Source: Chloropicon primus (Eukaryota > Chlorophyta > Chloropicophyceae > Chloropicales > Chloropicaceae). From it: a stretch of 64,000 nt of DNA. Made by a program: the position numbers and the translations under genes. The stretch spans positions 310,001 through 374,000 of the forward strand of contig CP060772.1 of NCBI GenBank assembly GCA_023205875.1, written 5' to 3'. Shown here piece after piece: positions 4,890-60,736 of this stretch (position 1 is the stretch's first letter; the number at the start of each line of letters is the position of its first letter). The notes under the pieces were generated by a model. That model did no database searches and was not told where the DNA came from. It saw only the letters and a list, made by a program, of their open reading frames with translations.

Positions 4890-5970
4890 CTGCCACACTG
4901 CCTCCTTCCTCTCTCAAAGCAAACCTGCGAGCGTCAATTCGTTCGAAACCAGACAAGCGACCACCCAATCGAATTACCGCGAGTCCATTCTTCGTTTGGC
5001 ACCTTCCCCTTCCCCTCTCGTCGCTCTCCTCGCCGCCACCGTCCTCGATAAGGTGAGCCACTCGGATGGTTTCTCCTTCACTTTCTGTCCTCTTCGTCGA
5101 TCCCTCGACCACTCCGAGCGTCGATTTGGCCAACCAAGGGCTCTTTGGAAAGCTCTCGCGACGATTTTTTGTCTGACGTCGTCGACGCGAGTAATCGTCC
5201 ACAAAATAATCTCGCTAAGCCCTCTGCTTCACCCCTTGGCCGCCCTCTCTGTCTCACTGGCTGCTGCTCATCCCAAAGACAAATGTGAGCGGCGGAGAGG
5301 CCTGCTGATCCCAAGGACAAGTCAGGTGAGTTGAGCGCAATATGGAGGACGAGGACGGATGTAATGACGTCAAGAAACAGCTTGGAGGAATTTCATGTCT
5401 CGATATCTTTCCATAGAGCCGTCGCACGAAACAAATGGCGTCGTATTGAGCTTGAAACCTGAACATGATGATCATCTCGCTTCCTGTTTACTCCACTGGA
5501 TTCCAGGTTGGTGCGTTTGATGGCACAGGCGAGAGGGAGGCGAAGCAAGGGGCAGAGGAGTTACGCATCTCGTAGCATCACGTCGTGATCTTTCGAATGA
5601 TACCTCTCTTGAAGCGGTTGACTTCATTTTGAGGAAGCTGGAGACTGACGAGCGACTTCCCTCTGGGTGTTTGACAGAGGTCAACAAGGCAGGGGACTGA
5701 GGGGCACTGGCGGTGAGGAGGGCAAAGAGTCGGAGGCGTTGACCCATTTCAGGATTGGGACGCATCCTCATCAATCCCGAATCGGTCTTCTCTCTTTGCC
5801 ATCCCTTGGGTTTCATGAAGGTCCTCCTCGGTGACCGAGAACGGAGTGAAGCAAGAACAGGGAAGGAGGGCCTGCGGTGTGTGGGGGCGGCAGGTGTGGT
5901 CTGAGCCCAGGCCAAGCGTCGTGAGAACGTGATTGGTTTCCGCTGATCCAACACGAGAGCTTGGAGAAGG
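4890..5970. promoter_or_regulatory. Divergent spacer with dispersed intron-like repeats
   Basis: Between two divergent genes. On the minus strand, about 4995-5165 is a dispersed repeat whose near-identical copy lies at 16440-16600 in the opposite orientation; its box core is at 5139-5160 and points toward the SET gene. On the plus strand, 5326-5506 is intron-like (starts GTGAGT, ends TTCCAG) with box core GATATCTTTCCATAGAGCC at 5402-5420. A second plus box, GATCTTTCGAATGATACC, is at 5587-5612. Both plus copies point toward the gene at 5971. Open frames here are not convincing as genes. Confidence 0.6.
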
Positions 5971-8370
5971 ATGCTGCCAACAACAACAACAACGAGCAAT
6001 GGGAATGGGCACCACTACCACAAGGGCAGCTATGGCAGCGTGAACCAGTTCTCCAAGATCATGTGGAGCTTGAAAAAGTTCTTCAGGCATGTCAAAGCGA
6101 GGCTCTCGAAAGAGAGCAAGATCAAGCTGATCGTCTACGCCATCTTCTTGCTGGTCAACGTGGCGTGGCTCGGCTCCACATTGATGGGCCTCGGGAGCGA
6201 AAGCGGTTACGACACGTCGCCGGGTGTGGCGAGGTCCGGGAGGAAGGGTAACGTCTGGGGGACAGCCGAGGGGAAGTCTCGGCACGGTCAGGGAGGTCAG
6301 AGAGGGAGGGGGGATGGGCAAGATCGCAACAGATCCGACCGCTCGGCGTCCAAGAGGAATGTGGATGACCTGGTTGAGTCGAAGGAGCACTGGCCCGGCG
6401 GGGACTTGGGTGGCATCGCCGTGAACGAGAACGTCATCCGTGCGAGAACGGGGGAGCAGATCAGCCTAGCGGCCAAGGTGGTGCACATCAACACGAGGAA
6501 GGATGCGGGAAGCGACTTGGTGATCGAGGGGGGGTCCATCCGCTTCAGCAGCGTCGGCAAGGAATTGCGCAGCATTCTGTGCACGCAGGAGAGGAGGGGC
6601 ACGATCGTGTACCTCTCCGGAACCGGGCCAGATGCAGACCAGATGGTCGCCTGCTTGAGAGCCAGCACGGGCACTTTCGAATGGAAGGCCCTGGCGGGAA
6701 GCGGATCGGACGTGAATGCCGTGATGGCGGGCTCGGCGCAATCGTCGTCGGGCTCGGAAGCCGACTTGCCCGTGTCCGTGCAGGGAGGGATCTCGGGCAT
6801 CTCAAGGAGCTTTGATGTGGGGGCGAAGAACGCCATTAGTGAGGGGCAGGCTGTGAGTTTCGTGGGGGGGAAGTTGTACCCCGGAGCGGCTCTGCACCTC
6901 AGCGAACCTCTGGAATTCGGGAAGGAGGACCTGCTCACGTCCCAAGGCATCAGCGGCGCGAGAAAGAAGATTGGACTGTACCCCTTGAGCTCCAAGCGCT
7001 TCTTGCTGTCGTACTGTAACAGCGTAGGAAGCGTTTACTTGCAGCTGGGAAAGTTTTCTGGCCAGGAGGGGGTCACGGAGAGCGTGGGAGCAATCTTGAA
7101 CAAGGCCAAGGTCGTGTTCTCCAAGGGTGGCAAGGTGGACGAGATCGAGATCTTGGTGCTTGGGGAAGACCGGTTCATCATCGTTTACACAGAGTACCAG
7201 TCGGGTGGCAGGCTCATGGCGGTGGCGGGGGAGGTGCTGTCCAACGACGTGGTCTCCTTTGGCGTCCCTCTGGAAGTGGATCCCAAGGGAGCGAGGCACC
7301 TCTCCATTGCCCCGATGGGGTCGAACCACATCGCGGTCCTCTTCACCAGAATGAAGCACCACGGGGATGCCAAGAAGGGAGGCTGCCTGGTGGTCTTGGA
7401 GCACAGCCCAAAGTTCAAGCACCTGGACTTGAGCATGCCGCAGGGGAAGTGCGTGACCAACATCGGAAGCGTGATTGACGCCACGCAGATCGTTAACCCG
7501 TCGAACAACCCCCAGATGAGCATCGTGAAGGACACGAGGCTCGTGGTGGCCTACAGGGATATGGTCTCGAGGAACACGGTCGTGAGGCACGTGGTCGTCC
7601 ACGACCTGAGCAGCGCGGATGCTTCCAAGAAGTCGATCGAGGCCGGGGGGGGGCAAGAGGATCTCAAGTTCTCGGGCACCGTGGGTGACGCCCTTGTCGT
7701 GCACGACTACGCGGTGAGACTGACGGACATCAAGCTGAGCCCGATCTCCAATTCGCATGTGATGGTCACCTACGCGGACAAGAAAAACGCTGGGCTGATT
7801 CTACTGGACGTGAGCTCGGCCCAGCCCTCTGTTGCCCTCGATCCCATGATCTTTTCCAACATGATGGTCCACTCCCTTGGGGTCCACGTCCAGGACCACC
7901 GCACCTTCCTGGTCTCCTACGGCGTGACCGAGCCCGTGAAGCTCGTCCGTATGATCAAAGTGGACATCAACATGAACCAAGGCGCAGGGGAGATGCACAT
8001 GCAAGAGTCCAGCCTGATGTCCAGCATCCTGACGCACTCGCAGATCCTGTCCATCGACGCGGACAACTTTCTGTTTGGATTTCTCCTGGGGTCCCAGGAG
8101 GAGGGGGGGGAGGTCCCGGGAACCGGTGGAATCCTCGCTGGATCCTTCGGACACGTCATCGGTGTGGCGGGAAGCAATGCTGCTCCCGGGAGCAAGGCCC
8201 CCGTCGTGCTGTCCGGCGTTTCGGCCCACCACAAGGGGCTTCACCCAGGCCAGTGCTACTACGCGTCTTCCTCGGGGATGCCTACGATCTCGAGAACAAC
8301 CACGCCGATCGGACTCTCCGTCTCGGACACGGAGATCCTCCTCTTTGCCCCGGGCTGCAGGACTGATTAG
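5971..8370 (+). CDS. Type II membrane-anchored protein of unknown function, beta-rich repeats
   Basis: A single exon of 799 residues. The first 50 residues are basic and Thr/Asn/His-rich, followed by one hydrophobic segment (about 51-73, IVYAIFLLVNVAW). This suggests a signal anchor with a short cytosolic tail and a large lumenal or extracellular domain. From about residue 160 the protein shows recurring beta-strand units of the type RFLLSYC, RFIIVYTEY, HIAVLFTR, HVMVTYAD and TFLVSYGV, each separated by about 60-80 residues. This looks like a beta-propeller, but I recognise no family. No catalytic motif stands out. The ATG at 5971 is the first in frame; Met31 is an alternative. Two box copies lie 360-570 bp upstream. 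It converges on the FAD oxidoreductase with 135 bp between stops; TCTGTAAC follows the stop. Confidence 0.85.
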   Translation: MLPTTTTTSNGNGHHYHKGSYGSVNQFSKIMWSLKKFFRHVKARLSKESKIKLIVYAIFLLVNVAWLGSTLMGLGSESGYDTSPGVARSGRKGNVWGTAEGKSRHGQGGQRGRGDGQDRNRSDRSASKRNVDDLVESKEHWPGGDLGGIAVNENVIRARTGEQISLAAKVVHINTRKDAGSDLVIEGGSIRFSSVGKELRSILCTQERRGTIVYLSGTGPDADQMVACLRASTGTFEWKALAGSGSDVNAVMAGSAQSSSGSEADLPVSVQGGISGISRSFDVGAKNAISEGQAVSFVGGKLYPGAALHLSEPLEFGKEDLLTSQGISGARKKIGLYPLSSKRFLLSYCNSVGSVYLQLGKFSGQEGVTESVGAILNKAKVVFSKGGKVDEIEILVLGEDRFIIVYTEYQSGGRLMAVAGEVLSNDVVSFGVPLEVDPKGARHLSIAPMGSNHIAVLFTRMKHHGDAKKGGCLVVLEHSPKFKHLDLSMPQGKCVTNIGSVIDATQIVNPSNNPQMSIVKDTRLVVAYRDMVSRNTVVRHVVVHDLSSADASKKSIEAGGGQEDLKFSGTVGDALVVHDYAVRLTDIKLSPISNSHVMVTYADKKNAGLILLDVSSAQPSVALDPMIFSNMMVHSLGVHVQDHRTFLVSYGVTEPVKLVRMIKVDINMNQGAGEMHMQESSLMSSILTHSQILSIDADNFLFGFLLGSQEEGGEVPGTGGILAGSFGHVIGVAGSNAAPGSKAPVVLSGVSAHHKGLHPGQCYYASSSGMPTISRTTTPIGLSVSDTEILLFAPGCRTD

Positions 8371-8505
8371 GCGCATTCTTATCTGTAACAGCACTCCCCT
8401 CTCAAAGGGGCGCTGGCTTTGTAAATCAAAATCAACCGAAAGCAGCAGAGTGACAGTTGACACCAACTTTTGTTATTACAAGCAAGGAAGCGACAGGCGA
8501 AGGCT

Positions 8506-9756: not shown

Positions 9757-10441
9757 ATCCTCCTCCTCCTCCTCCTCAGTGACACCAACGCAAACAGGAC
9801 AAGCAGATGCTGATGATGAAGCCGGTGATGAAGCTGGTGGTGAGAGTGTTTGTGCTGCTGCTTCCTTCCAAGTCCTCGTGTAAGTCTGCAACCAGAACGA
9901 TGTGTTTGTTCCCAGGTCAAGTCAAGTCAGAACTCGTTGGAAACAGGAGGAGATGTTGAAGATGATGGCGGTCGGTGGCGATGTTTGCCCCTGCTGCTTC
10001 CTCTAGGTTCCCTCCTCGTCCTCGTTGTCTGTTCAACTCTGACATCCAAAAAAAGAGGTGGACAATGAGAATGAGAATTACGTTTCAGGTTGCTTCATCC
10101 TCCACACGACGCCATTTCTTTCAAGAGAGCAGTCAAACGAAAGAAGAAAGGACGAAGAATTGTATTATGCCAAGGTCCCTACACACCTGTGGACGCCACC
10201 CACCGTGTTCCCTCCACACAAGTTCTGCTCCTTTCGTTCCCGCGAAAAATTGTTAAAAAAAAAAAAGATTTTTCCTCCTTTTTTTTTGGCGGGAGATCCA
10301 ACGAAACCACAAACAAACGGAAGACGAACGCAAACCAAGGAAGGAGGAGGAGGAGGAGGTTTCAACAGCATTCGGTTCAGCATCTCCTTTCCCCTCCGAC
10401 GACAGACGACTCGGCATCCTCTTCGCCGATCGTGTCGCGCG

Positions 10442-10507
<66 letters not shown>

Positions 10508-12812: not shown

Positions 12813-13214
12813 GTGCTCCAGATCTCCCGGTCGTCGGGCGGCTGCTGGGAACACGGCGAAGCGAAGGCGGAGAACGCAGCAAGCGGCGACGTCGAGGACG
12901 AGCGGAGGAGGGAGCGAAAGGCGGAGGGGAGGGACCACACGATTTAGCATCTCTTGATCTTTCCAAAGACCTCTCACTTGCACGAGGAAGCGCGAGAGTT
13001 TCGTTGCCATTCACGAAAAGATCCATCCTCCGGAAAAAGTTTGTCGAAAAACAAAACGAGTGACTTTTGGATCGAATTACGGGCGGAAGAGGGAGAGGAA
13101 GAGAGCGAGCGTCACACCATTGGAGAGAGAATCTCACGCTTGTTTGATTCGTAGGTCACTTGACGCTATTTTCGTGACGCATCGATCATTTTGTTTGAGT
13201 TCATTCCCATCAGC
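12813..13214 (+). promoter_or_regulatory. Leader/promoter region of the helical unknown
   Basis: A box copy at about 12955-12980 (TTGATCTTTCCAAAGACC then CTCACTTGCACGAGG) points toward ATG 13215. The sequence immediately before the ATG ends TTCCCATCAG, an intron-like acceptor two bases from the start codon. No gene is seen in the rest. Confidence 0.5.
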
Positions 13215-16097: not shown

Positions 16098-16325
16098 CCA
16101 ACAAACCAGAGGGAAAAGATCACCTTTCAGTCTCTCCCGTCCTCAACAGAGCGCCAAATGGGACAAGCGACGGCTCTATGGAAAGCTCACGACATGTTGC
16201 TTCCGCAAGTTGGTTTCCTTTCCGCATCCTCTCGTCGTCACCGTCGCTAAACGTACCTTGAAGTTGAAGTCCCCTCTGATGACTCACTCAATCCTGTCCT
16301 TGGGATCGAGAGCACTCTGAAATCA

Positions 16326-16367: not shown

Positions 16368-16737
16368 ACGGGTTCATCGATTGCTTGTGAACGAAGGCTG
16401 ACTCTTATCGAGATAAAGAGTGCGTCAAGCAAACGACTGTCTCGAGATCTTTCCAAAGAGCCCTTGGTTGGCCAAATCGACGCTCGGAGTGGTCGAGGGA
16501 TCGACGAAGAGGACAGAAAGTGAAAGAGAAACCACCCGAGTGGCCCACCTTATCGAGGACGGTGGCGGCGAGGACAGCGACGAGAGGGGAAGGGGAGGGT
16601 ACGGGACGAAGCGTTGACTCGTTATCTTTGTCCAACCTTGGTGCAAGGGGGGAACAGGGAGAAAGGGAGGGAGAGATAGAGAGAAGGGAATCCATCCAAG
16701 CATCCATCCAAGCATCCAGGTTCATCCAGGTGGTTGG
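16098..16737. promoter_or_regulatory. Divergent spacer carrying a dispersed repeat copy
   Basis: A minus-strand box at 16169-16190 (GAGCTTTCCATAGAGCC) points to the LNR gene. An (AG)n run lies at about 16329-16361. From 16440 to about 16600 on the plus strand lies the repeat that recurs, inverted and roughly 95% identical by eye, at 4995-5165; its box core GATCTTTCCAAAGAGCCC at 16446-16465 points to the HAD phosphatase. Short ATCCA repeats precede ATG 16738. Confidence 0.65.
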
Positions 16738-18531: not shown

Positions 18532-18947
18532 GATGTTGATCTCAAGGTTAGGTCCTCTCTAATGAGCAAATCAGAGCCAAACGAAGAAAGCGACGGCTCT
18601 TTCGAAAGATCAAGAGATGAACTTTCTGGTGACGATCCGTCCTTCTGTCCCTTTCTCCTCCTGCTCGCGATACCTCCCCTCCTTTGCTCCCCTCCCTCCT
18701 CCTCCCACGATGTAGATCAATTCTTTCGTTACTTTTCTAAATCTCCACCAAATGGACCGATCTCGGGCTCTACGGAAAGATCACGATACTCTCTTCCCTC
18801 TGTTCCCCTTCCCTTCCCCTCCTTCTCCCCTTGTGCTCGCGATACCTCCCCTCCTTTGCTCCCCTCCCTCCTCCTCAGCAGAAGCCCAGAAGCGTAGTGG
18901 TGACGGCGCCACAGAACGGAGGAGGAGAAGGCGAAGAGGGCGAGAGG
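18532..18947. promoter_or_regulatory. Divergent spacer with two minus-strand box copies
   Basis: Box cores at 18593-18612 (TTGATCTTTCGAAAGAGCC then TTCGTTTGGCTCTG) and 18765-18784 (GATCTTTCCGTAGAGCCC then CCATTTGGTGGAG) are both on the minus strand, upstream of RBM25. The rest is CT-rich, and the phrase GCTCGCGATACCTCCCCTC is repeated at about 18666 and 18836. Confidence 0.55.
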
Positions 18948-19929: not shown

Positions 19930-20474
19930 CTTTGTATTCTACTTTTGGCTTTTTGAAGAGCAAGGACCACGGGCGAGTCCGACCGACCGTACGCACCTGC
20001 AGTGCCTTCCCTCCTCGTCCCCGTTGCCAATCATCACGGCTCCCGCTCCGCTCGTGCACTCTCCTCCTCCTCACCAGTGCATCAGCATCATTCCTCCCAA
20101 GTGAGGGCATTTCAGAAAGAGCAAAAGATAGCAAGACGATCTGTTGGCGTCCTTTCTTCTCATCACCCTGCCTCCCGTCCTCCTCGTCTTCCAACCAACC
20201 AACTCCTTGCCACCTTCATCCACTCACTCATCCAAGAGCTCGGCCGTTATAATTCAAACTGGAAAACGCCAGAACTTCGTAACGGGCGGGCAACGCAACA
20301 GAGAGACAGAGAGACGAGGACGAGGAAGGGGAGGAGGAAGGGGAGGAGGAAAGGGAAGCTCCCGGTGCACCGCGTCGTGGCTTCTCTTCTCTTCCGGAGC
20401 AAGCTTCTCGTTAGAGAGTCAGAGTGTTCGCGAACGAGAGAACGAGAGAGAGAGAGAGAGAGAGAGAGACGGGG
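19930..20474. other. Spacer with AG-rich repeat and one box copy
   Basis: It contains one minus-strand box copy at about 20097-20125 (CCAAGTGAGGGCATTTC), related to the tandem copies at 35.9 and 55.6 kb and pointing away from the following plus-strand gene. AGGGGAGGAGG runs and a short (AG)n tract end just before ATG 20475. I see no gene. Confidence 0.5.
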
Positions 20475-22140: not shown

Positions 22141-23368
22141 CTCCTTCCTTCAAGCAGGGCAGCCGAGATCTTCCGTTGGGCTTCAATCATCGAGAGGGAA
22201 AGGAAGGTGAGACGCAAACACGTCAGTGGCTTGCCTCTTGGCGAAGCAAACGAGGAGCTTGTCCTTCGTGACAAAGTGGACTACCCAAGTGAGGTCCTGG
22301 GCTCCTCACAGTGGAACCAGTGGGCCATTTCCTTCGAGTAAACACTCTAATGAAAGCTGATGAGAAGGAGATTCTGATTGTTTCTCTTCTCTCTTGCTTT
22401 GGCCCTCTCTTCCGTGCGTAATCAGGGGAGGAACTCCTTCGTGACAAAATGGACAACCATGCGAGGTCCAGGGCTCCTCACAATGGAAACAGTGGACCAT
22501 TTCCTTCGAGTGAACACTCTGATGAAAGAGGAAGAGAAGCTGGTTCCAGTAGTGCCCTCCGTTGTTGCTTTACTCCCCTCCATCGGTAGCAATCTTCCTT
22601 CAACTTACCTCTGGTGCGCCACCTCCTTGAAATGCTTTGGTCCACAAGATGAAAATGAAAACCAAAAAACACAGAACACAGAAAACACAAGAAAATTCAT
22701 CGAAAGTCACAAGAGGAGGTGAGTTTGAGCGCGAAAGAGAAGCAAAGGTGGAGACTTGGAGCAAAAGATCCGGTCGTGGATGGAAGCTTGACCTCAAGAG
22801 CTTTCCATAGACCCCTCACTTGGCGAAGATGACGCTCGGGGGAAGATTTGACAACTGAAACCAGCTCGTTTTCTCCTATTCTGCAGTGAAGACAGGTGAG
22901 TTTGGAGGCGGAGGGAAGTTCGAGGTTGGCACCCCGAGTCGTGGAGCTGGCACAGATGAAAGCATCACGTCATGATCTTTCCGTGGAGCATTCGCACGAA
23001 TGATTTGGTCCAGTGGTGAAGTTGTGAGAGACTGAAACGAGGCCTCTTTACTTTGGCTCTTGGGTCTCTGGCAAGGTTTCATACTTTTCCAGGGAGGAGG
23101 AGAGGAGGAGGAGGAGGCACAAGCGGTTTCCAGGGTTTGGAGACTGGTAGGGTACCTCTCCCACTTGGTTGCCTCACTCCCACTTGCTCTTCCTTCAGCT
23201 GGGGTGAACTTGGTCCTTGGCTAAAGCACAGCTGTACCTTGGAGTCAAGGAGGAAGGGGCAGAGGTGGTGGTGGTGGCCGTTGTCTGCCAAAGGTTCCGC
23301 CTTTGTTACCTTCTTGGGACTTGGTCCAGCGTAACGGGCTCGAGAGTAACGGCTGTGACGGTGGCAGG
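22141..23368 (+). promoter_or_regulatory. Spacer with tandem repeat and two consecutive intron-like blocks
   Basis: A ~172-bp tandem duplication occupies about 22262-22530; CTTCGTGACAAARTGGAC recurs at 22264 and 22437. Then come two intron-like blocks in a row. Block 1, 22719-22886, runs GTGAGTTTGAG to ATTCTGCAG with box core GAGCTTTCCATAGACCCC at 22799. A 9-nt mini-exon follows. Block 2, 22896-23092, runs GTGAGTTTGGAG to TTTTCCAG with box core GATCTTTCCGTGGAGC at 22975. Both point toward the glycosyltransferase ATG at 23369. Block 1 and its flank recur inverted at 52420-52660. Confidence 0.65.
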
Positions 23369-25375: not shown

Positions 25376-25724
25376 AGGAGGAGAGCGTCCTCTCGATGTA
25401 ACAGAAAACTTTTTTCCATTTTCCTCCAAATTGATTTCATTTCAATTTTCATTTTTTTCCCGGGAAGGCGGCTGACGAAAACCCAAAGGTGAGGAACGAC
25501 GAGGATGACGACGACGACGACGACCGAGAGGGCAAACCACTCGAGGAGGGAGGAGGTTCAACGCAACCGTTACGTTTTCCTCTTTCCATCGACCCCTCCC
25601 TCGAAAGAAACGGACCAGGGATGAGAATGCAAAAAGACTGATGAGTTGGATTGATTGATTTTTTTTTTCATCCTGCTGCTGATGGTTGATGGATGGTGAG
25701 CAGAGGGAGAAGAAACTTTTGAAG
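25376..25724 (+). promoter_or_regulatory. Intron-like leader block upstream of fumarylacetoacetase
   Basis: 25489-25703 begins GTGAGGAACG, carries box core CTCTTTCCATCGACCCC at about 25580-25597 with CCCTCGAAAGAAACGG after it, has AGACTGATG and a T-rich tract, and ends GGTGAGCAG 21 bp before ATG 25725. This is the same architecture as the other leader blocks. Confidence 0.55.
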
Positions 25725-27231: not shown

Positions 27232-28012
27232 ACTCGCTACTAACTTAATTCACTTTTTTTTCAAGTCTGTCCCACCGCATTCCACTCGACGACGGCGGCG
27301 CTCATTCTATTGCTCCTGACGGCCCAATACAGGCATCTCTCCACATCCCAAGGGCAAGGTGGATCCTCTTGCTCGCTCCCCTCGTCACCGCCATCCTTCG
27401 AGCGTTACGCTCCCTCTTCCTAACGCTAACGCTTCGCTTCCTCACCCGAGCGTCACATCCTTCAAGAGAGGCTTCTTTCGAAAGATCAAGACACAGAGCT
27501 TCCCTCTGTTGCTTCTCCCTTCGCTACCTTCCTCGTCCTCGTCCTCTGCTTCCCTCTCTCTCTCCCTCTCTCCGCCTCTCTCTCGCTCTGCTCCGCTCTG
27601 CTCTCCCTCCAAAGAATCCTCACCACTGCATCGTTTCCTTCGAGCGAGGGCTCGTTCGAAAGAGCAAGACCAGACGTTTCGACTTGCTTCCCTTTCCTCC
27701 TCTCCTCTCCTCCGCCGCGCGCTCCACTCCTCACCTTCTCTCTCGCAACCGCGCGCTCCTCGCCTCAGGCCAGTGGCGGCTGCAGACTGGCGACGGCTGG
27801 AGTAACGAAGAGGTGAGTGTTCGAGGAGGCCTCACGGTCGGCGAGAGCAAAAGCAGAGGGGGTGTGACACACCAATGGATGCGTTTCGTTCTCATCTTTC
27901 GAATGAGTGGTCGCATGAAGGGATTGCGTTTCGGATGAACTGACTCGATTCCATTTTGTTTGGGATGGACAAGCAGGAGCAGGAGCAGGCCAAGGAGTAA
28001 GAGCAGGAGAGG
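27232..28012. promoter_or_regulatory. Spacer with three box copies and a leader intron-like block
   Basis: Two minus-strand boxes (27469-27492, TTGATCTTTCGAAAGAAGCC; 27646-27668, TTGCTCTTTCGAACGAGCCC) have no minus-strand gene downstream. The plus-strand block 27813-27976 (GTGAGTGTTCG to GACAAGCAG, 164 bp) holds box core CATCTTTCGAATGAGTGG at about 27893 and GAACTGACTCG. It ends 37 bp before the NOP14 ATG, as a leader intron would. Confidence 0.6.
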
Positions 28013-32123: not shown

Positions 32124-33243
32124 CCTCTCCTTCCTAAACCTTCCTCAACCGCGCCAGCAATGAAACTTGCCGATGCCAAGGGAACGAATCGCCGACGGAG
32201 CGATGTCCTGGGATCAAAACCGAGCAGGAGAAGAGGACGAACCGCCGCGTGGGAACCTTCCCAAACACGAAAACGCTTCCACTTTCCAATGGGAACAACA
32301 ACTTCAAGCAGATCAAAATCACGTCAAATGGAACACTTCAAGTCGAACCGGAGTACCAAATCTTTCCAGCGACCACTCAATCGAAAGATGAGGAGACGTA
32401 GATTCTATCCGTGACGCTCTTCGCCGCTCCAGGACTCGACACCGTTCCCTAACGCATCCTCAAAGTCACTCAAACCCGTTGCTGAGAGCAATCCGATCAA
32501 ACATTTGTCAGTCTACCATCTTCACCAGGGCACCATTCTTTTCCATGGAGAGGTCTACGGAAAGATCTCGAGGTAACGGTTCCGCTCGTACCCGTAACGC
32601 ACGCTTCACACTTCAATCCTCGATGGTATTTCCCGCCCCAACCTTCGTGTCTGCCAATCGTTCTTCGCGGGAGAAAAACTTTGAATAGAATAGAGCTCTC
32701 TCTCTCTAGGGAAAAAGCAGTAAGACTCAAGGGGCGACACGAAGAGGGCTTCGGAGGACGGAGGAGAGCGATAGAGGAGGCGAGGAACACATCATTCCAA
32801 AGGTCTTGTCGAGAGCTTTCCAACGATACCTTACTTGACCCATTTGGTGCCCGGAGTGATCGATTAGACTCGAGTGTTTGAGAATTTGAACCAGAAAACA
32901 CCCGAGAGCTACACCTTGTCGAGGACGGTGACGGCGAGGACGGTAACGAGAGTGGGGGAGGAAGGTGTAGAACGAAGCTTTGACTCGAGGTCTTTCGATT
33001 GGTGGGTCGCACGCTTGGTTTGGTTACCGGAGTGTCGATTAAGGTCCGGTTCTTCGGAGCGAGAAGAGCAGAGGGTGGCCAAGGTGTGAAGCAGGGAGGG
33101 CAGAGAGGTGTGAGGTCGTGAGGGTTCTCGGTGGCAGTGGGGGAAAGAGGTTGGCGGGAGGTGGTTTGGATTGATTGAGTCGTTCACTGGACGGCGGGTG
33201 GGTCGTGTTTCCTTTTTGTTGGAGGGAGAGGGAGGGAGGTGGT
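32124..33243. promoter_or_regulatory. Divergent spacer with box copies facing both genes
   Basis: The minus-strand element at about 32505-32575 (box GAGATCTTTCCGTAGACC, then GAATGGTGCCCTGGTGAAG, then GACTGAC) points to the carrier gene. The plus-strand element at 32813-32990 (box GAGCTTTCCAACGATACC, then CCATTTGGTGCCCGGAG) points to CENPJ. Its distal part (about 32895-32990) is a diverged copy of the 4995/16440 repeat. No gene is seen. Confidence 0.6.
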
Positions 33244-35616: not shown

Positions 35617-36478
35617 TCCATTGGCGATCGACGACGACTTACGACGACTTACGACGACGACTTTTTGCAGCATCCATAAGTAATGATGTATTCCATTTCA
35701 CGATTCATATAGGCAAGTGGAAACAATGCGGGAGAGGGAGAGTGCAAGAGATCCACAGCAAGCAAGCAAGCGCTGGCAATAATCCGATCCACCATCACCA
35801 TCACCAGGATTATTCCATTCCTCACCGATCCATGATGTGATCCCTGTCACCATTCCTCCCAAGTGAGGGCTCTTCGGAAAGAGCAAGAGACAACGCATCC
35901 ATCCATCCATGACCCCTCTCCCCCTCCCTCCCCGTCCCTCCACCATCACCCCCCTCCTTCCACCCCATCATCATCATCATCACCTCTCTGTCTGTCTCCT
36001 TGCCATGATCCCTGTCACCATTCCTCCCAAGTGAGGGCTCTTCGGAAAGAGCAAGAGACAATACATCCATCCATCCGTGATCCCTCCTCCCCCTCTCTCC
36101 CTGTCTCTCCACCATCACCCCCTCCTTCCACCCCATCATCACCATCACCTTCACCTTCACCTTCACCAGCAGCTCAAGATTTGGCCGTTCGACGAGACGA
36201 GACGAATTTCACGTCAAAATCTGGGAAATAAAAGCGTCGACGCGTCGGTGGATCGGGTCGGTGACGAGACTCCCTCGTGGTGGCGGAAGTCGGCGACGAG
36301 GACGGAGGCGGGAGGTGCGGAGGACCGCGAAAACCGACGGAACATCTCGCGAGCTTTCTGTCGAACCCTCACTCGACGGAATACGCCGACGACGACGGGA
36401 ATTCTTGGTCAAACCCTCGCTTGTGTGTGGCCGTTACGAGGACAAGGGGTTCGTAACCGATCGGAGCGGAAACCCACG
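35617..36478. promoter_or_regulatory. Spacer with 168-bp tandem repeat and a box before the lectin-like gene
   Basis: Two tandem copies (period 168; CCCTGTCACCATTCCTCCC at 35842 and 36010) span about 35826-36165, each with a minus-strand box (CTCTTCGGAAAGAGCAAGAG on plus). The same tandem pair recurs at 55.54-55.86 kb. Closer to the gene a plus-strand box lies at 36349-36380 (GCGAGCTTTCTGTCGAACCC, then CACTCGACGGAATACGCCG), about 100 bp before ATG 36479. Confidence 0.65.
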
Positions 36479-46679: not shown

Positions 46680-47558
46680 TCAGATGAAGACCCGAGCACC
46701 TTTGACTCCCCTCGTCCTAATGCAGAGCCATGGCGAGCGTCTTCCACCCTCTGCTTCACCCTCTGCCTCTCCTACCTGGTGACCAGCACAGACAAAAACC
46801 AACGCCAAAAAGTCAGTCATTCCTTCCTAGCAACTTCACCAAAGCTTCGTTTCGGCCGTGCGGGTGCGCTTTCGAACGCTAGCGAGATGCGTTTTCGAAT
46901 GACCCGTCGTTCTCTTCCTCTTCTCCTCACCTCGTTCCCTCCTTGTCACGAGAAAACCATCATCCGAGGCAAAAACGTTTGACAAAAGTCAGTCCATGAA
47001 GCACAGAAACTTCACCAGGGCACCAAACTCGTCATGGGAGGCATCGTTGGAAAGATCTCGAGAAGATCTTTCCATGGATACCTCACTCGCCTCCATCGCG
47101 CCTCACCTTGACCCCCTTGTCCCCCCTTTCGCGTCCCGATGGCCTCTCTCCTCCTCTCCTCTCTGCGCACCACGAGTTCCTCGGCAAAACGCCGCCTTCT
47201 GCGCGGAGGAGGAGCTCGAAGAGAGCTCGAACTTTGACAGAGTCCAGAGGACGCATCCGTGCGTGAAACGAGTCGACGAGTGGATCAATCGAAAGAGATC
47301 AAGAAGATCTTTCCATCGATACCTCACTCGACCCAAACCTCGCTCCATCACGTTCTAAAGCTTTGGTTTGATCCGACCGTGATTGACGAATTGGTTCCGA
47401 CGAGCAACACAACTGTTCCGAATCGTAACGCACGCGTTCTGTCGTTACACGAGTCGCCGTGAGGATCGTTCGAAAGAGCGTCTCGCGATCTTTCCATTGA
47501 TACCGTACTCGACCCCATTGTGTTCTCATCGCGTCCTCAAGTTTGAGTTTGATTGAAG
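46680..47558. promoter_or_regulatory. Divergent spacer with four box copies
   Basis: A back-to-back pair meets at about 47050: the minus copy (47036-47062; distal block about 47005-47035 reading TTTGGTGCCCTGGTGAAG) faces TraB, while the plus copy (47062-47090, AGATCTTTCCATGGATACC) faces NAA15. Further plus copies at 47305-47330 (GATCTTTCCATCGATACC) and 47485-47512 (GATCTTTCCATTGATACC) also face NAA15, the last about 70 bp before its ATG. This is the clearest display of the box family. Confidence 0.7.
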
Positions 47559-51935: not shown

Positions 51936-52860
51936 ACTGCTTCAACAACGTCCTTCCTCAACCCCCTTGACAGAGACACGATCAACCGATGACACAAGCA
52001 AGCAACAACGGGCTTCCTGCTTCAAGCACGGGGAAGGAGAGGAAACACAAACAAACAGAAACGAGAGATGCTTTTGGTTTCAGTTCCTCCATTCAAGTCA
52101 TGCAAGTCAGGACTCTTTCCAATGCATTGAAGCGTGACGTTCCCGAGTTGAGGTGTGGCATGTAGGTACTCTTTCGAAAGCTTGTGACATGATGCTTGCA
52201 TCTAGCACTCCCCTTCACCGCTTTCCCCTCCTCTGATCCTCCTGGATCCGTCCAAACTTACTTATGGCAATGGCATCAACACAAACGCGACAAGAGAAAA
52301 CCACGAATAAGTCGGTCAAATCTTCACCAGGACGCCATTCGTTTCGAGACCGATATCTTTCGAAAGCTTACGGCCAGGCGCGTTCGTTCATGCCCAACAC
52401 ACTCTACCTATGCCTCCACTTCTGACACCCCAAAGTCTCCAAACTCACCTGTTTCACTGCATCAAAGAGAAAACAAGCAGGTTTCAGTTGTCAAATCTTC
52501 CCCCGAGCGTCATCTTCGCCAAGTGAGGGGTCTATGGAAAGCTCTTGAGGTCAAGCTTCCATCCACGACCGGATCTTTTGCTCCAAGTCTCCACCTTTGC
52601 TTCTCTTTCGCGCTCAAACTCACCTCCTCCTGTGACTTTCTGAATCTTTTCCTGAGGCCACGCAATAGTCAGGACGTCTAAAGAGATTCTCGACGAACCC
52701 GAGGATGGATGACTCATCATCACCCTCTTTCCCTTTTTGCCTCCCGCGATCCTGGAAACCTGAACCTAAAAACCTAAACCCTAAAACCTTGGGGCTCCGG
52801 AAGAAAAACTTGTCCTTGGGATCAGAACCCCACAAGGGAATGATCCTCTCCTCTCCTCTT
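51936..52860 (-). promoter_or_regulatory. Upstream region of TDH with stacked intron-like repeats
   Basis: Three minus-strand boxes lie at about 52163-52185, 52345-52370 and 52518-52548. The block 52623-52457 (minus; GTGAGTTTGAG to TGATGCAG, 167 bp) is nearly identical to 22719-22886. It is followed by an 8-nt mini-exon and a second GTGAGTTTGGAG block, copying the arrangement at 22.7-23.1 kb but inverted. ACCTAAAAACCTAAACCCTAAAACC at about 52765-52790 resembles telomere-like repeats but is short. No gene is seen. Confidence 0.65.
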
Positions 52861-54179: not shown

Positions 54180-54849
54180 GACGATTGGATGAATGGATTG
54201 GATTGATAGCAAAACCCTAAAAAGCAAAATCGAGGCAAGATTGTCAGTTAGCCTCCCTCTCTTCCTCACGAGAACGCCATTCGGTTCGAGCGAGGAGTCA
54301 TTCGAAAGAGGAGGACAAGACGCTTCCACCAGTCCCTCCCTCTTCCATACTCTTCCACCTTTCCATCGCTCACATCGCCATCAAACTTGCATCTCACCTC
54401 GCCTCCTCCTCGATAACGCTTCGTCCTCCTCGATAACGCTTCGTTTGGATAAGCGAGTGACTGACAAGGAAGGAAGGTGTCTGGGCTTTGGAAGGTCAAG
54501 GAGAGCGAAGGAGAGCGAAGGGAAGAGAGAGGGAAGGATCATTGGAAAGTACGTCTCACTGGCTTTCCAAAGACACCTCGATCGCTTCGTTTGGCCCTCG
54601 GAGTGATCAGAAGGAGTTGCTTGAAGTTGTTCCTCGAAGCCTTTTGGAGCGAAAGGGAGGGAGGGAGGGAGAGAGAGGGTGGGTGGGAGGGTACTGGGCG
54701 GCGCTTGGGAGGGCATACGACCTTCACTTCTCCGAATCACACACGCAGCGAGGAAAGGGGAGCGTGAGCGGCGAGTTCGAGGAGAGGAAAGGTCTCTGGC
54801 GCATCACAAGAGACGCGACGAACTCGGGCGTTAATCTTCCCAAGAGTAT
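54180..54849. promoter_or_regulatory. Divergent spacer with leader intron-like block and box copies
   Basis: Minus strand: block 54397-54217 (GTGAGATGC to TTTTTAG, 181 bp) with box TCCTCTTTCGAATGACTCC at about 54286-54312, distal block CGAATGGCGTTCTCGTGAGG and AACTGACAATC, all in order toward the 87-residue gene. Plus strand: box GGCTTTCCAAAGACACC at 54561-54590 with TTTGGCCCTCGGAGTG after it, toward the rhodanese gene. GATAACGCTTCGT is tandemly repeated near 54413. Confidence 0.65.
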
Positions 54850-55446: not shown

Positions 55447-55956
55447 TGGGACGTTTGCTTTCGGGGGCTCAGACGGACCACTACCAAGTGGCGGTGGAGG
55501 CCACCACTCCTCCTCTTTCGCCCGGGCGAGGAGCATTCATCATCACCATCACCTCTCTCTCTGTGTGTCTCCTTGCCATGATCCCTGTCACCATTCCTCC
55601 CAAGTGAGGGCTCTTTGGAAAGAGCAAGAGACAAGGCATCCATCCATCCATGACCCCTCCTCTCCCTCTCCCCCTCCCTCCCATCACCCCCTCCTTCCAC
55701 CCCATCATCATCACCATCACCTCTCTGTGTGTCTCCTTGCCATGATCCCTGTCACCATTCCTCCCAAGTGAGGGCTCTTTGGAAAGAGCAAGAGACAAGG
55801 CATCCATCCATCCATGACCCCTCCTCTCCCTCTCCCCCTCCCTCCCATCACCCCCTCCTCCCTCCTCCCTCCTCCCTCTTCCCTCTGACAAAATCCACGT
55901 CATCCGAGAGAGAGAGAGAGAAGCGTCATATCGTCCTCGTCCTCGTCGCCATCGCC
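55447..55956. repeat. 164-bp tandem repeat shared with the 35.8-kb spacer
   Basis: CCCTGTCACCATTCCTCCC at 55583 and 55747 marks two copies in about 55530-55862. They are nearly identical to the pair at 35826-36165, including the minus-strand box (CTCTTTGGAAAGAGCAAGAG on plus), ATCCATCCATCCATGACCCC, CCATCACCCCCTCC and the CATCATCACC tract. The repeats lie between two plus-strand genes. (CCTCCCT)n and a short (AG)n run precede the IVD start. Confidence 0.85.
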
Positions 55957-57476
55957 ATGGCTTTCGTCTTGGGATCCCTTCGCGGCATCCTCACAAGGAG
56001 ACCGAACACATCGAGCCAGGCTCACTGGATCAAAAAATGTTTCGCGACTCAAGCGCCGACCGACCAAGAACTCGACGAATTCAGAGAACAGGTAAGAGGA
56101 ATGCATGCACAGAAAAAAATTAACGCTAGAGTTCACCCATTTCCCATTTCCCATTCCTTTCTGACTCTTTTGTCCTCGCCTCGTTCTATGTAACGCCTGG
56201 TGGTTTCGTAACGGACGAAAGGTGAAGGAGTTTGCTCAGAATGAGGTTGCCCCTCACGCTGTTGCGGTGGATGAAGCGAATGACTTTGGAAAGTATGCGA
56301 GAGGTGAACCAGACTTGTGGAAGAAATTGGGTGACTTTGGTCTGCATGGCTTGACCGTGCCGGAGGACAAGGGAGGGTAAGGGGGGTTGACATGTCTTGC
56401 ATCATGCTGATGGATTTCATTCTGACATTCATTCCATTCATTCATTCTTCATGACTTTACCTTACCTTGCTGCTCGTTCATCCCATTCCTTCCTCAGGTT
56501 GGGTTTGGGATACGCGTATCACTGCGTGGCTATGGAGGAGCTCTCGAGAGCTAGCGGTGCGATAGCATTGAGTTATGGAGCGCACAGCAACTTGTGCATC
56601 AACCAATTGACGAGGCATGCGACAAAGGAGCAGGCAGACAAGTACCTCCCTCCGTTGATATCGGGAGACCATATCGGAGCTCTGGCTATGAGTGAGCCTG
56701 GCTCGGGAAGCGACGTCGTCAGCATGACTTGCCAAGCCAAGGAGAACTCTAATGGAGACTTTGTGCTGAATGGCAACAAGATGTGGTGCACGAACGGCAC
56801 GATCGCGGATACGCTTGTGGTTTACGCGAAGACTGACATGGAACTCAAGTCAAGAGGCATCACGGCGTTCGTGATCGAGAAGGGAATGAAAGGGTTCTCC
56901 ACGGCCCAGAAGCTGGACAAGCTTGGCATGAGAGGCAGCGACACGTGCGAACTCGTGTTCGAGGACTGCGTCGTGCCCAGGGAGAATGTCTTGGGCGAGG
57001 TGAACAAAGGAGTCTACGTGCTCATGAGTGGCTTGGACTTGGAGCGTATGGTGCTCTCCGCGGGGCCCATTGGGCTCATGCAGAACGTCCTCGACGTCGT
57101 CATGCCTTACGTGCACGAGAGGAAGCAATTTGGGCAGAAGATCGGGGAGTTCCAGCTCGTTCAGGCCAAGATAGCTGACATGTACACCAAGATGGTCTCC
57201 GCAAGAGCCCTTACTTTCGCCACCGCGAGGAAAGCGGACCGGAACATGATCGACAGGAGGTTCGCCAAGGACTGCGCCAGCTGCATCCTTTACGCGGCCG
57301 AGAGTGCCACCCAAGTCGCTCTGGACGGCATTCAGATTCTCGGAGGGAACGGCTACATCAACGAGTATCCCACCGGAAGGCTCTTGAGGGACGCAAAGTT
57401 GTACGAGATCGGCGCCGGGACGAGCGAGATCCGAAGGCTGATTATCGGAAGGGACCTGTTCTCGGAGTACGAGTAA
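55957..57476 (+). CDS. IVD: Isovaleryl-CoA dehydrogenase, mitochondrial
   Basis: Exons 55957-56091, 56222-56376 and 56498-57476 give 422 residues. The N-terminus ([16 protein letters not shown]) is an amphipathic basic mitochondrial presequence. Acyl-CoA dehydrogenase landmarks: [40 protein letters not shown], the FAD/substrate loop [60 protein letters not shown] and [17 protein letters not shown]. The catalytic Glu of IVD lies in helix G (the [13 protein letters not shown] region, Glu conserved). It oxidises isovaleryl-CoA to 3-methylcrotonyl-CoA in leucine breakdown, passing electrons to ETF. It converges on the GTPase gene (81 bp between stops). Confidence 0.95.
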
Positions 57477-57557
57477 GCAAGAGCCCGAGACTCATGTCGA
57501 AAAGGTTTTGTGACCCTTTGATAGAGAAAAAGTCATACATTTTTATCCCGAAACGCC

Positions 57558-60362
57558 CTAGTGCACAAGCCCAACGCCTCCAAGTCTTCCCGTTTGCTGG
57601 TTCCGCAGTACGACCGTCGAGCCCTTTGGCATCCACTCCGCCCAGTGAAGGAACTTGAGGTCCACGAGCAACGGCAAGCTGTAGAAATGAATCTCCTCCT
57701 GCTTCAGAGATACGATGTCTTCCAGCGCCTGGTACACTTGAGCCGAAACGCCAGACTCCCCCAGATCACTCAGGGCTCTGCAAGATGCGATGGCAGCGGC
57801 TTGCCTGATGCTCCCGCAGTGGACCACAACGGTGCTCCCTTTCAGAACTTTGGACAAGAATGTGATATCATCGATGACCGAGAGGTCGCTGGATTCCCCG
57901 CAAAAAGAGTCCTTCACCAGCTTCATAACGGCCCTGAAGCTTCTGGCGGCGGAGGGGGTAAGCCCCCTGAGCAGGACGGTGCCCTTCTTCGTGGGCGGGG
58001 AGCCTCCACTGGACGGGGAGAAAGAATGAGAGTGAGGAGGAGAACCAGCCTTCTCGGCGGAAGCCTTGCAAGGAATGTTGATGCTCGAGGATTCCTCCGG
58101 CTTGCCGCTTCCTGGTGCTTTGCCACTGCCACCGAGATCGTGCAGGTCCAATCGGGCCCTCTCAGATGACTCCCACCGGAAGCCCCGCTTCTCCCCCTCG
58201 TGGTGCTTGAAGTCCAAGGCCAGCGTGCCCGTTTGCCCCACGGCGAGTTTGTTCACCGGAACTTGGGATCTCTCGATGCTCTTGACTCGCACGGGGGAGA
58301 AGCTGCCGTCCTCCATCGGACCAAGCAGCAGCTGATAGCCCACCTTGATCTTGCCGCTGAGAACAGTACCGAACAGCACGTGTCCAACAGCCGGGACCTC
58401 GAAGGTCTTGTAAACTTGAAAATGCAGCAGCTGCATCTGCTGCTGCTGTTGCAAGGCCTCACTCGGTTGAGATTGCTGGGCATGGTTGCCTGCGAGAGAA
58501 TCAGAGAATTCAGGGGCAGGCGACTTTGTGTTGCTGTTCCTCCTTCTCCAGTCTCTCGGCCTGAGCTTCTTCAGGAATGCGTGGAGCAAGGTCATGCCAT
58601 CGCCGCTCACGCAGCTCACGCCGAGCACGGGGACAATGGCATCCGCAGCTGCGCCACCGCACTCTCCACTGCTTGCGGGCTGCTTTCCTAGCCTCTTTCC
58701 CAACTCTCTGGCCTGCTCAATGGTTTGCACCAACTCGGTACAACTGTTCTCACCAAGCAATGCTTTCACCTCCTTGTACACGTGCAAGGACTCCAAGCTC
58801 TTGGCATCCTCCTCACCTTCCAGGGACGAGGATGGCGTCAGGTCAATCTTGGTCATCACAACAAAGATGGGAGCGCCGAGCACTCTGGCCAATGCAGCGT
58901 GCTCCCTTGTCATTTCAGAAACCCCTTCCTGGGCAGACACGATTAGCATCACGAAATCAGGGACCAAGCACGTCAAGCCGTAGCAGGTTGTCTTGAGGTA
59001 CCTCTCGTGGCCGGAGAGGTCAAACAGCCGCAGCATCTTCCCCGCTTCCCTCGACATCTCCACGGGGGAAAGGGGCCAGCAAACGCTGTCGGTTTGGTAA
59101 TTCAGGCAAAGGCCGTTCTTCCCGTAGGCCAAGACCTCGTGAGCGATGCTGCTGGTCCTCCCGCTCTCCACCTCGTGCCTGTGGGTGAACACCCTCGACC
59201 GCGCCTGTCCCATCCCATTGCAAAGCAGCGGCTTCCTGTGCTCCCCGTGCGTCAGCACACTCATCAGTGTGCTCTTTCCCGCATCGTGGGCCCCGCACAT
59301 GGCCACTCGCAGCTCCGTGTAACTATACGCGTGCTGCTTCGGAATCAGTCTTACGTGGACCGAGGCGTACTTCCCTTCGTAACCCTCGAGAAGCGTTACC
59401 TTCATCGTGAAGAGCTCCCCGCCTAGGAAGGGATCCAGGCTAAAGTCCTGGCCCGCAGCGTGCCTCTCGATGAGCCCGTCCAAAAAATCAAAGGAACCCT
59501 CCCCAAAAGGCCGAGGCTTGGCGCCGCCGCTGCCCGCTAGAATCGCACACATCGAGATGAGCGTCCCCAGCGTCTCCTTGAGCTCCCTTTGAACGAGGCC
59601 TCTGCAGAAACCGTCGTCCTGCACTCCAAGGTAATACACGCAAGTTCCCCTCTCGTCCCCGCTGGACTCGGAGAACCGGAACTTCATCTGTGTCACGAGA
59701 TGCTCCAACCGATTGCACGAGACCTTCACCAGCTTCAGCTTGTATTCCACGTTCCCTTCAGGGTTCTCCCTCCCCAACCAAAGCTTCGGACCCGACCGAC
59801 GACGCTCTCCCCGTCCTCTCCCGCTCCCCGACGTCGTCGAGACCGATACTCCACCGCAAGAGCAGACGCTCTCGCCACCCCTCCCAGCTCCCCCCTCCTC
59901 CTGATCCCTCCTCGTGGAGGACGACGGTCCCACCCCATGGCTCCCACACTGCCTCGCCCTCCCCTCCCTCTTCTTCCTCTCCCTCTCCCTGCACTTATCC
60001 AGTTTGCTCTCCCTCCTTTCCACCTCCTCGTCCAAGTTCACCGTAAAAGCAAACGTCCTCCGTGATCCTGTGCCACCCAGACCTTCACCAAGTGAATCTC
60101 CGCCGCCCTGGCCCTCCTCTGCCGCCCCTTTGCCCTCCTCCTCCTCCACTCCCCTCTCCAGGCTCGCACCTTGTCCACCCATGAAAACACACAAACACAA
60201 GTCAGAAACCTTTGCAAAGAGCGTTACTCGTAACGTCCGACGGCACTTTCGAAAGAGGAGAGCATGAAGATTCGTGACAACTGACTTCCTCCCCCCTCGG
60301 GTCGATAACACGAGGACAGTGTCCTGCTCACCTAGACGGATGCCATCAATGACGCCAGCCAT
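57558..60362 (-). CDS. GTPBP1/GTPBP2-like translational GTPase
   Basis: An open frame of 934 residues from ATG 60362; 880 if the intron-like block 60331-60170 is spliced. The G domain has G1 CGAHDAGKSTL at about residue 352, G3 RLFDLSGHERYLKTT, and G4 VVMTKIDL. After it come EF-Tu-like domain II (VPAVGHVLFGTVLSGKIKVG, LLGPMEDGSFSPVRVKSIER) and a domain III-like end (GSTVVLRNQQTGRLGGVGLV). The upstream region YKLKLVKVSCNRLEHLVTQM matches GTPBP1/2. These GTPases act in ribosome rescue and mRNA surveillance. The long charged N-terminus and a Ser/Pro-rich insert in domain III are lineage-specific. Minus-strand box immediately upstream. Confidence 0.9.
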   Translation of the reverse strand: MAGVIDGIRLGEQDTVLVLSTRGGRKSVVTNLHALLFRKCRRTLRVTLFAKVSDLCLCVFMGGQGASLERGVEEEEGKGAAEEGQGGGDSLGEGLGGTGSRRTFAFTVNLDEEVERRESKLDKCRERERKKREGRARQCGSHGVGPSSSTRRDQEEGGAGRGGESVCSCGGVSVSTTSGSGRGRGERRRSGPKLWLGRENPEGNVEYKLKLVKVSCNRLEHLVTQMKFRFSESSGDERGTCVYYLGVQDDGFCRGLVQRELKETLGTLISMCAILAGSGGAKPRPFGEGSFDFLDGLIERHAAGQDFSLDPFLGGELFTMKVTLLEGYEGKYASVHVRLIPKQHAYSYTELRVAMCGAHDAGKSTLMSVLTHGEHRKPLLCNGMGQARSRVFTHRHEVESGRTSSIAHEVLAYGKNGLCLNYQTDSVCWPLSPVEMSREAGKMLRLFDLSGHERYLKTTCYGLTCLVPDFVMLIVSAQEGVSEMTREHAALARVLGAPIFVVMTKIDLTPSSSLEGEEDAKSLESLHVYKEVKALLGENSCTELVQTIEQARELGKRLGKQPASSGECGGAAADAIVPVLGVSCVSGDGMTLLHAFLKKLRPRDWRRRNSNTKSPAPEFSDSLAGNHAQQSQPSEALQQQQQMQLLHFQVYKTFEVPAVGHVLFGTVLSGKIKVGYQLLLGPMEDGSFSPVRVKSIERSQVPVNKLAVGQTGTLALDFKHHEGEKRGFRWESSERARLDLHDLGGSGKAPGSGKPEESSSINIPCKASAEKAGSPPHSHSFSPSSGGSPPTKKGTVLLRGLTPSAARSFRAVMKLVKDSFCGESSDLSVIDDITFLSKVLKGSTVVVHCGSIRQAAAIASCRALSDLGESGVSAQVYQALEDIVSLKQEEIHFYSLPLLVDLKFLHWAEWMPKGSTVVLRNQQTGRLGGVGLVH
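60170..60331 (-). other. Intron-like box element inside the GTPase coding frame
   Basis: A 162-bp block begins GTGAGCAGG right after codon 10 plus one base, carries box core CTCTTTCGAAAGTGCC at about 60243-60260, a TGACTTG site and a T/G-rich tract, and ends GGACAAG. Splicing it would join CTA-G to GT-GCG without changing frame, and the retained version also stays open. The residues it would encode are unlike the family. Splicing is inference. Confidence 0.5.
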
Positions 60363-60736
60363 CTTAGCCTTCTCCCTTGGCTTTTCGTCCTCAGAGCGTC
60401 ATTCTTTTCATGCGAGGGCTCGTTGGAAAGCTCGCGACAAGATCTTTCCCGTGGTTCTTCTCCCTTCGCTTCCCTCGTCCTCCCTCGCCGCTCAGCTCTG
60501 CGAACGCGCCGCTCCTCAAGAGACGTCGTCCTCTGGCGAGAGAGAGAGAGAGAGCAAAGGGACTGACTGGAGGAGGAGGAGGAGGAGGAGACGAAGGAGA
60601 ATATTGTGAACGATTGGAAGATATTTAGAAAACTTGGAAGCATTCGTTCGAAAGATCGTCTCGAGATCTTTCCAGTGATACCTTACTCGACCCCTTGGGT
60701 GGTCTGTGGAAGGATTGAGACGTGAAAAGCATCCAG
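60363..60736. promoter_or_regulatory. Divergent promoter region with box copies facing both genes
   Basis: The minus box at about 60412-60436 (GCGAGCTTTCCAACGAGCCC, then GAAAAGAATGACGCTCTGAGG) ends about 30 bp before the GTPase ATG. A back-to-back pair at about 60640-60690 has its plus member, GAGATCTTTCCAGTGATACC at 60664, ending about 50 bp before PIG-T ATG 60737; GCATCCAG immediately precedes that ATG. Confidence 0.65.

Follow-up and report, generated by a model that had tools for sequence, protein, structure and literature searches.

A directional box family stepped at nucleosome length near gene starts of Chloropicon primus: a candidate promoter-proximal module

Core promoter and initiator motifs are directional, lie near gene starts and occur at divergent gene pairs, and the same holds for a box of about 65 letters that recurs in a 64,000-nucleotide stretch of the green alga Chloropicon primus (assembly GCA_023205875.1, contig CP060772.1; C19:310001-374000; hereafter the window). 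The box differs from such motifs in being longer, in forming phased arrays, in lying partly in predicted introns and in being absent from most sampled genes on large chromosomes. The nearest functional idea may be intron-mediated enhancement, for which the motif TTNGATYTG is described in Arabidopsis; the motif acts from near the start site, does not need splicing and has more effect in more copies (PMC6760150, in part). However, the box is much longer, recurs at a fixed step to either side of a centre and is also found where intron signals are lacking; TTNGATYTG itself was present in only 2 of 99 units, with 0.006 per unit expected from background. The nearest structural idea may be the introners, families of similar introns in picoalgae (Micromonas, Aureococcus) that are tied to nucleosome linkers (PMC9860276, in part). 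In contrast, likeness among the units described here is concentrated in an internal box and, in the pair examined, continues past the splice sites; neither splice-like signal is present in 46 of 89 copies. Since the survey in PMC9860276, as described in part of that source, was limited to introns between start and stop codons, leader introns fall outside it.

Periodic marks of nucleosome length near gene starts of unicellular algae have been described as linker 5-methylcytosine (DNMT5) and as AMT1-dependent N6-methyladenine (PMC12695648, PMC10538959, both in part), whereas the box is a long directional DNA sequence and not itself a base modification. A DNMT5-type gene was not found: there is one PF00145 match genome-wide, and an SNF2-type neighbour was sought only within 4 kb. 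The sole C5-methylase domain found in the genome (L029 1324-2595) reads, by its motif, as what we take to be a DNMT2-type tRNA methyltransferase, and CpG methylation was therefore rejected as the source of the period. No description of the box was found in open-access literature on Chloropicon genomes, promoter motifs, nucleosomes, introners or intron motifs. The words 'motif', 'promoter' and 'intergenic' have no occurrence in the main text of PMC12301720.

Box family and outward geometry

The genome analysed comprises 17,584,162 bases in 20 contigs; for C. primus RCC138, 20 chromosomes and a G+C content of 57.44% are reported (PMC12301720, Table 1, in part). Base-by-base reading covered the window and 20 stretches of 10 kb at preset positions (264 kb in total), plus short loci, and genome-wide box figures are pattern counts. 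A sequence-only reading of the window had proposed a two-part recurring box and listed 37 sites. This proposal was borne out by a profile built from 52 copies outside the window, which recovered 36 of the 37 sites and added seven; the missed site, minus 60660, overlaps the plus copy at 60669 as a palindrome. The weakest match of this outside-trained profile in the window scored 10.7 bits, compared with 5.5 bits for the best on the reversed window. A profile seeded from the 37 listed sites scores all 37, which is circular. Upon iteration, the profile yielded 104 elements in the 264 kb, of which 100 were left after removing four weaker opposite-strand overlaps, 40 of them in the window; reversed sequence reached 6.2 bits at best. 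Genome-wide, the exact pattern of the sequence-only reading gave 65 matches and none in the control, and a 32-place pattern with up to two mismatches gave 1,073 matches versus 4 in the reversed control. Of 99 known copies in the sample, a nearly identical pattern, also with up to two mismatches, caught 51, so that the genome may hold closer to two thousand.

The box consists of a left arm, GGAA-N3-TC, followed by GATCTTTCS-N3-GA-N2-CCTC-N-CTYGA and then by WTGG; the left arm is a mirror of the right arm. Column statistics were taken over 94 of 98 copies, the four without TTTC being left out, with TTTC as the anchor (position 0). The strongest columns are GAA at -19 to -17, TC at -8/-7 and CTTTC at -1 to +3 and, on the right side, GA at +8/+9, CCTC at +12 to +15, CWYGA at +17 to +21 and TGG at +28 to +30. 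CTTTC, GA and the G at +20 are near-invariant and adjoin near-random columns, and this column-specific conservation is unlike the neutral decay of a repeat. Some sites are near-palindromic, with matches on both strands 12 bp apart (47055/47067, 47296/47308, 47477/47489 and 60655/60667). A purine-rich tract precedes the box (A+G, 0.79 at -50 to -31). Used alone as a profile, the tract picked up few units, with 9 matches (8 of them before a box) and 1 in the reversed control.

The spacing of the boxes was assessed from pair counts over distance bins (tandem, 126-218 bp; divergent, 201-293 bp; convergent, 232-262 bp). Genome-wide, 5, 126 and 18 tandem same-strand pairs were found at 126-156, 157-187 and 188-218 bp, respectively, and none in these bins of the reversed controls. 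The median same-strand step was 179 bp, and 80% of steps fell within 167-188 bp, among the 122 steps listed (100 of the 126 pairs of the main bin were used, one overlapping entry being left out). Stepping of this kind (126 pairs against 5 and 18) is one property expected of a DNA-encoded nucleosome phasing array, and the step may reflect nucleosomes. Divergent opposite-strand pairs numbered 6, 68 and 63 at 201-231, 232-262 and 263-293 bp, with a TTTC-to-TTTC distance of about 261 bp, and the same motif pieces in convergent order gave 3 pairs at 232-262 bp versus the 68 divergent ones. Among neighbours within 450 bp in the 264-kb sample, 32 were tandem, 18 divergent and none convergent. The boxes thus point outward from a shared centre, usually with one or two modules per side in the sample. 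The window holds nine centres between divergent boxes, and such a centre may be a promoter.

Likeness of spacers was measured over both flanks of each box. By this measure, 20 of the 32 tandem pairs have dissimilar flanks (both sides at or below the 95th percentile of unlinked copies), and their steps are 175-188 bp in 17 cases and 199, 205 and 241 bp in the others. The 12 pairs with alike flanks, which are more recent duplicates, have steps of 161-187 bp, mostly 161-172 bp. Since the old pairs cluster at least as tightly as the young ones, and at a longer step, selection on the step is suggested, although the numbers are small.

The boxes of the window (profile matches, each with its TTTC position as anchor), the introns predicted around some of them and one example centre are as follows.

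2955..3024, plus: box, anchor 2979
5106..5175, minus: box, anchor 5151; left half of the divergent pair with 5408
5384..5453, plus: box, anchor 5408; GT[AG]AG at -82, CTGA at +51
5567..5636, plus: box, anchor 5591; 183 bp beyond 5408
9898..9967, minus: weak box, anchor 9943; 14.7 bits with the outside profile
10097..10166, minus: box, anchor 10142
12936..13005, plus: box, anchor 12960
16139..16208, minus: box, anchor 16184; divergent pair with 16450
16426..16495, plus: box, anchor 16450
18562..18631, minus: box, anchor 18607
18733..18802, minus: box, anchor 18778; 171 bp from 18607
20073..20142, minus: box, anchor 20118
22310..22379, minus: box, anchor 22355
22482..22551, minus: box, anchor 22527; divergent pair with 22802
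22778..22847, plus: box, anchor 22802
22719..22886, plus: predicted 168-nt leader intron around box 22802; GTGAGT ... ACTGAAAC ... CTGCAG
22954..23023, plus: box, anchor 22978; 176 bp beyond 22802; GTGAG at -82
25559..25628, plus: box, anchor 25583
27438..27507, minus: box, anchor 27483; directed at the end of the gene upstream
27616..27685, minus: box, anchor 27661; backward-pointing; divergent pair with 27897
27873..27942, plus: box, anchor 27897; followed by the Nop14 frame at 28013
27813..27976, plus: predicted 164-nt leader intron around box 27897
32341..32410, minus: box, anchor 32386
32518..32587, minus: box, anchor 32563; 177 bp from 32386
32588..32792, no strand: example centre between divergent boxes, anchors 254 bp apart
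32793..32862, plus: box, anchor 32817
32969..33038, plus: box, anchor 32993; 176 bp beyond 32817
35835..35904, minus: box, anchor 35880; backward-pointing
36003..36072, minus: box, anchor 36048; backward-pointing; 168 bp from 35880, of which it is a recent tandem duplicate
36331..36400, plus: box, anchor 36355
47008..47077, minus: box, anchor 47053; near-palindromic; weaker plus-strand match 47067 left out of counts
47249..47318, minus: box, anchor 47294; near-palindromic; plus-strand match 47308
47467..47536, plus: box, anchor 47491; the NAA15-like frame at 47559 has its ATG 68 bp further on
52134..52203, minus: box, anchor 52179
52320..52389, minus: box, anchor 52365
52495..52564, minus: box, anchor 52540; unit nearly identical to the 22802 unit
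52457..52623, minus: predicted 167-nt intron around box 52540
54262..54331, minus: box, anchor 54307; divergent pair with 54564
54217..54397, minus: predicted 181-nt leader intron around box 54307; ends shortly before ATGGCGTACATG
54540..54609, plus: box, anchor 54564
55576..55645, minus: box, anchor 55621; backward-pointing according to the gene calls
55740..55809, minus: box, anchor 55785; 164 bp from 55621, of which it is a recent tandem duplicate
60209..60278, minus: box, anchor 60254; within the called frame 57558-60362, perhaps as part of a first coding intron; GTGAG at -77
60384..60453, minus: box, anchor 60429; the ATG of frame 57558-60362 follows after about 67 bp
60645..60714, plus: box, anchor 60669; the ATG at 60737 follows after about 68 bp

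Some copies of the box are repeated exactly. On C20, one of the small chromosomes, a single 32-letter box is present in four letter-identical copies (181662, 190503, 212173 and 238461). On C19, three box matches at 296510-302445 are letter-identical to those at 309506-315438, the latter segment reaching the start of the window; the constant offset of 12,993-12,996 bp suggests a tandem segmental duplication of about 13 kb. Subtypes by rank in an array were considered and dropped for being too few: five type-A copies (and one mixed) stood at rank 1 and none at rank 2 of two-sided arrays. Pattern scans for relatives elsewhere gave 2 viral and 56 prokaryote stretches, which were taken as chance (best profile score, 17.0 bits); the viral contig with two pattern matches is an 87-bp tandem repeat.

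Genes, chromosomes and intron-like signals

Gene calls were open reading frames found by script, which miss spliced genes and misplace some starts. The sequence-only reading had placed the box in front of most genes, in the orientation of the gene and about 50-300 bp from its ATG, and had considered a genome-wide core promoter or a leader element. The orientation bias toward genes is real, and copies occur on most chromosomes; neither outcome that the sequence-only reading had named as its refutation (a lack of bias, or absence outside the window) was thus observed. A same-orientation box lies upstream of 15 of 24 called genes in the window and of 17 of 66 elsewhere, so the rule describes a subset; the proposed distance likewise applies to a subset, with 10 of the 32 nearest same-strand boxes at 61-126 bp. 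"Most genes" is right for the window and wrong for the genome, where the fraction among sampled called genes is 2/29 on C1-C8 and 15/37 on C9-C20.

Compared with the called genes, 45 of 99 elements lie between divergent genes and point to their starts, and 37 lie between same-strand genes, of which 19 face the start and 18 the end of the neighbouring gene. Of the others, a single one falls within a frame and 16 sit at the edge of a stretch; none of the 99 lies between convergent genes, the gaps of which total only 3.9 kb. The 18 backward copies are as expected if boxes radiate from a centre, and the earlier orientation rule follows from this outward rule. Two of the 18, L025 291 and 468, in fact precede a start codon missed by the gene caller.

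Box density falls with chromosome size. The three largest contigs have 0-0.5 exact-pattern matches per Mb and the two smallest have 27.9 and 16.8 (20 contigs, 65 matches; rho -0.82, p = 9e-6), and C1-C6, half of the genome length, hold only 5 of the 68 divergent pairs at 232-262 bp. Since density drops in this way, and 27 of the 29 called genes on C1-C8 have no same-strand box, the idea of a universal core promoter is not supported.

The idea of a leader element fared better in one respect: 43 of 89 copies have a 5' splice-like or a branch-point-like signal where one would be expected (for these counts near-identical copies were removed, leaving 89). It fared worse in another, since ATG is depleted directly 5' of start codons and not around boxes. 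Most boxes are therefore probably outside mature 5' untranslated regions; for boxes that are untranscribed or spliced out, no depletion of ATG would be expected.

The intron-like signals keep fixed positions relative to the box. In the pair of repeat units read closely, GTGAGT precedes the box, and ACTGAAAC, a pyrimidine tract and CTGCAG follow it. Genome-wide, GGTRAGT ahead of the box core gave 171 matches for gaps of 60-90 bp versus 14 for gaps of 91-121 bp, and in 68 of 100 listed among the 171 matches the GT lies 79-86 bp from TTTC, or about 83 bp. After the box, CTGA peaks at +54 from TTTC. Among the 89 copies, GT[AG]AG occurs at -92 to -68 in 31, a branch-point-like site at +44 to +75 in 29, and both in 17 (association, p = 0.0018). 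The full set, including a following YAG, is present in 20 of 98 copies, compared with 2 on the opposite strand, 3 after a shift of 90 bp and about 6 in block shuffles. A search by reading frame that required GT[AG]AG gave 14 candidate coding introns, 6 of them with CTGA near the 3' end. Some predicted introns stop right before a start codon (54307 in the window, L025 468 and L026 3475), and these putative leader introns may be spliced.

Copies with either signal and copies with neither have a common core and differ most at +36 to +46. Among backward copies, 16 of 21 have neither signal, or 16 of 19 once L025 291 and 468 are reassigned; after this reassignment, either signal is present in 34 of 66 forward and 3 of 19 backward copies (p = 0.008). 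Given that the box also occurs without intron signals, the intron is more likely the package of the box than its cause. One whole unit is near-identical at 22688-22907 and 52437-52654, 30 kb apart and in opposite orientation, and single units can therefore be copied elsewhere. Genome-wide, the distances from 5' splice-like site to box hint at clusters near 72, 83 and 93 bp, spaced by roughly a helical turn.

Candidate module and competing explanations

Our preferred reading, to which we give a probability of roughly 45%, is that the boxes are the conserved core of a promoter-proximal, nucleosome-length module that is read as DNA and often lies in leader introns. Each module, with its 179 bp or so matching the nucleosome repeat length, would hold a purine-rich tract and then the box, and modules would flank a centre on either side with their heads outward; of those on the gene side, about half would be carried in putative short leader or first introns. 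A dedicated sequence-specific factor would bind every box at the DNA level, set the phase of the first nucleosomes around a bidirectional promoter and boost initiation from a position close to the start site, in a manner similar to intron-mediated enhancement, and boxes in introns would be kept out of the mRNA. That all of this amounts to a sequence-encoded nucleosome ladder, in which the factor reads one directional box per nucleosome outward from bidirectional promoters and introns at fixed offsets excise the boxes, is possible but doubtful. We know of no described promoter architecture of this kind.

Several observations weigh against the module. Neither intron signal is present in 46 of the 89 copies. 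The uncorrected contrast between forward and backward copies is weak for either signal (32/64 versus 5/21, p = 0.044), and gives p = 0.59 for the 5' splice-like signal alone and p = 0.50 for both. The box steps have no clear helical phase, and helical phasing of the 5' splice-like distance is suggestive only (24 of the 32 off-peak distances are in register; p = 0.012, or 0.19 by permutation). On large chromosomes, the majority of sampled genes do without a box, and the small-chromosome bias is left unexplained; longer intergenic regions or higher recombination are possibilities.

Among other explanations, the boxes might be the conserved interior of an introner-like family, that is, of mobile, nucleosome-length introns multiplied in leaders, with the copies lacking signals decayed or inserted outside transcripts. 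The nucleosome length of the units, the constant distance of GGTRAGT (171 versus 14), the association of the 5' and branch-point-like signals in 17 copies (p = 0.0018) and the near-identical unit at two places 30 kb apart all fit such a family; introners abound in aquatic lineages, and the survey of them, being limited to start-to-stop introns, would have missed these (PMC9860276, in part). However, similarity in the one pair examined closely (22688-22907 and 52437-52654) extends beyond both splice boundaries, 46 of 89 copies have neither signal, conservation is column-specific, and backward-pointing copies keep the outward order, and we consider this origin unlikely. Tandem core promoters, with every box a directional initiation site and several in a row between nucleosomes, would account for the outward direction and the divergent pairs, for the 10 of 32 nearest boxes 61-126 bp before a called ATG, and for 47491, 60429 and 60669, which lie about 67-68 bp before called ATGs and have no intron signal. 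Many genes have no box, however, and many copies are at predicted introns, hence downstream of the start site, which makes such promoters rather unlikely.

It is improbable that the structure is driven by repeats alone, through unequal exchange or recombination hot spots on small chromosomes that multiply a unit of about 165-180 bp close to promoters, with no regulatory role. Such a process would fit the strong small-chromosome bias and the recent tandem duplicates with steps of 161-171 bp, but not the near-invariant columns, the outward polarity, or the clustering of diverged pairs at 175-188 bp where alike pairs spread over 161-187 bp. An element acting in nascent RNA to aid splicing of leader introns would agree with the fixed offsets from box to splice-like signals and with the difference between intron classes at +36 to +46; the 46 copies with neither signal, the conserved box-to-box steps and the lack of a consensus RNA structure (0 predicted pairs on 54 copies) make it quite improbable. 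A coding repeat or a non-coding RNA gene appears very improbable. One frame with few stops does cross the box, and the third phase is the least conserved (0.82, 0.73 and 0.53 bits). A coding repeat is disfavoured, however, by the T at the third place of a would-be Leu codon, which is invariant in the 94 TTTC-anchored copies (4 of 98 having no TTTC), and by the many steps that are no multiple of three; a structured RNA was rejected because the 54 copies gave no consensus structure and no Rfam family matched at gathering score in the window.

Whether DNA sequence, barriers or remodellers set nucleosomes at gene starts is a long-standing question, and more than 1,000 copies of a directional box at nucleosome-length steps would make it testable in one organism. 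The fixed offset from the box to the 5' splice-like signal, together with copies that have no intron signal, provides a natural test of enhancement by promoter-near introns, and the outward polarity offers a clear marker of bidirectional promoters in a compact genome. Outward-pointing boxes are perhaps an unrecognised way to organise gene starts.

Neighbouring features of the window

Two tandem arrays of the window have no box, at 11957-12806 (period 157-166 bp) and 52849-53319 (period 111-137 bp). In the frames at 50536-51456 and 56451-57476, the domain matches start at profile position 84 (epimerase) and 57 (acyl-CoA dehydrogenase N domain), respectively, so deep within the family profiles that the gene calls probably lack upstream exons. 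The frame at 33244-35616 has Tcp10_C and CPAP tubulin-binding domains, as in a centriole-type protein, and C. primus is described as having no flagella in vegetative cells (PMC6731263, in part).

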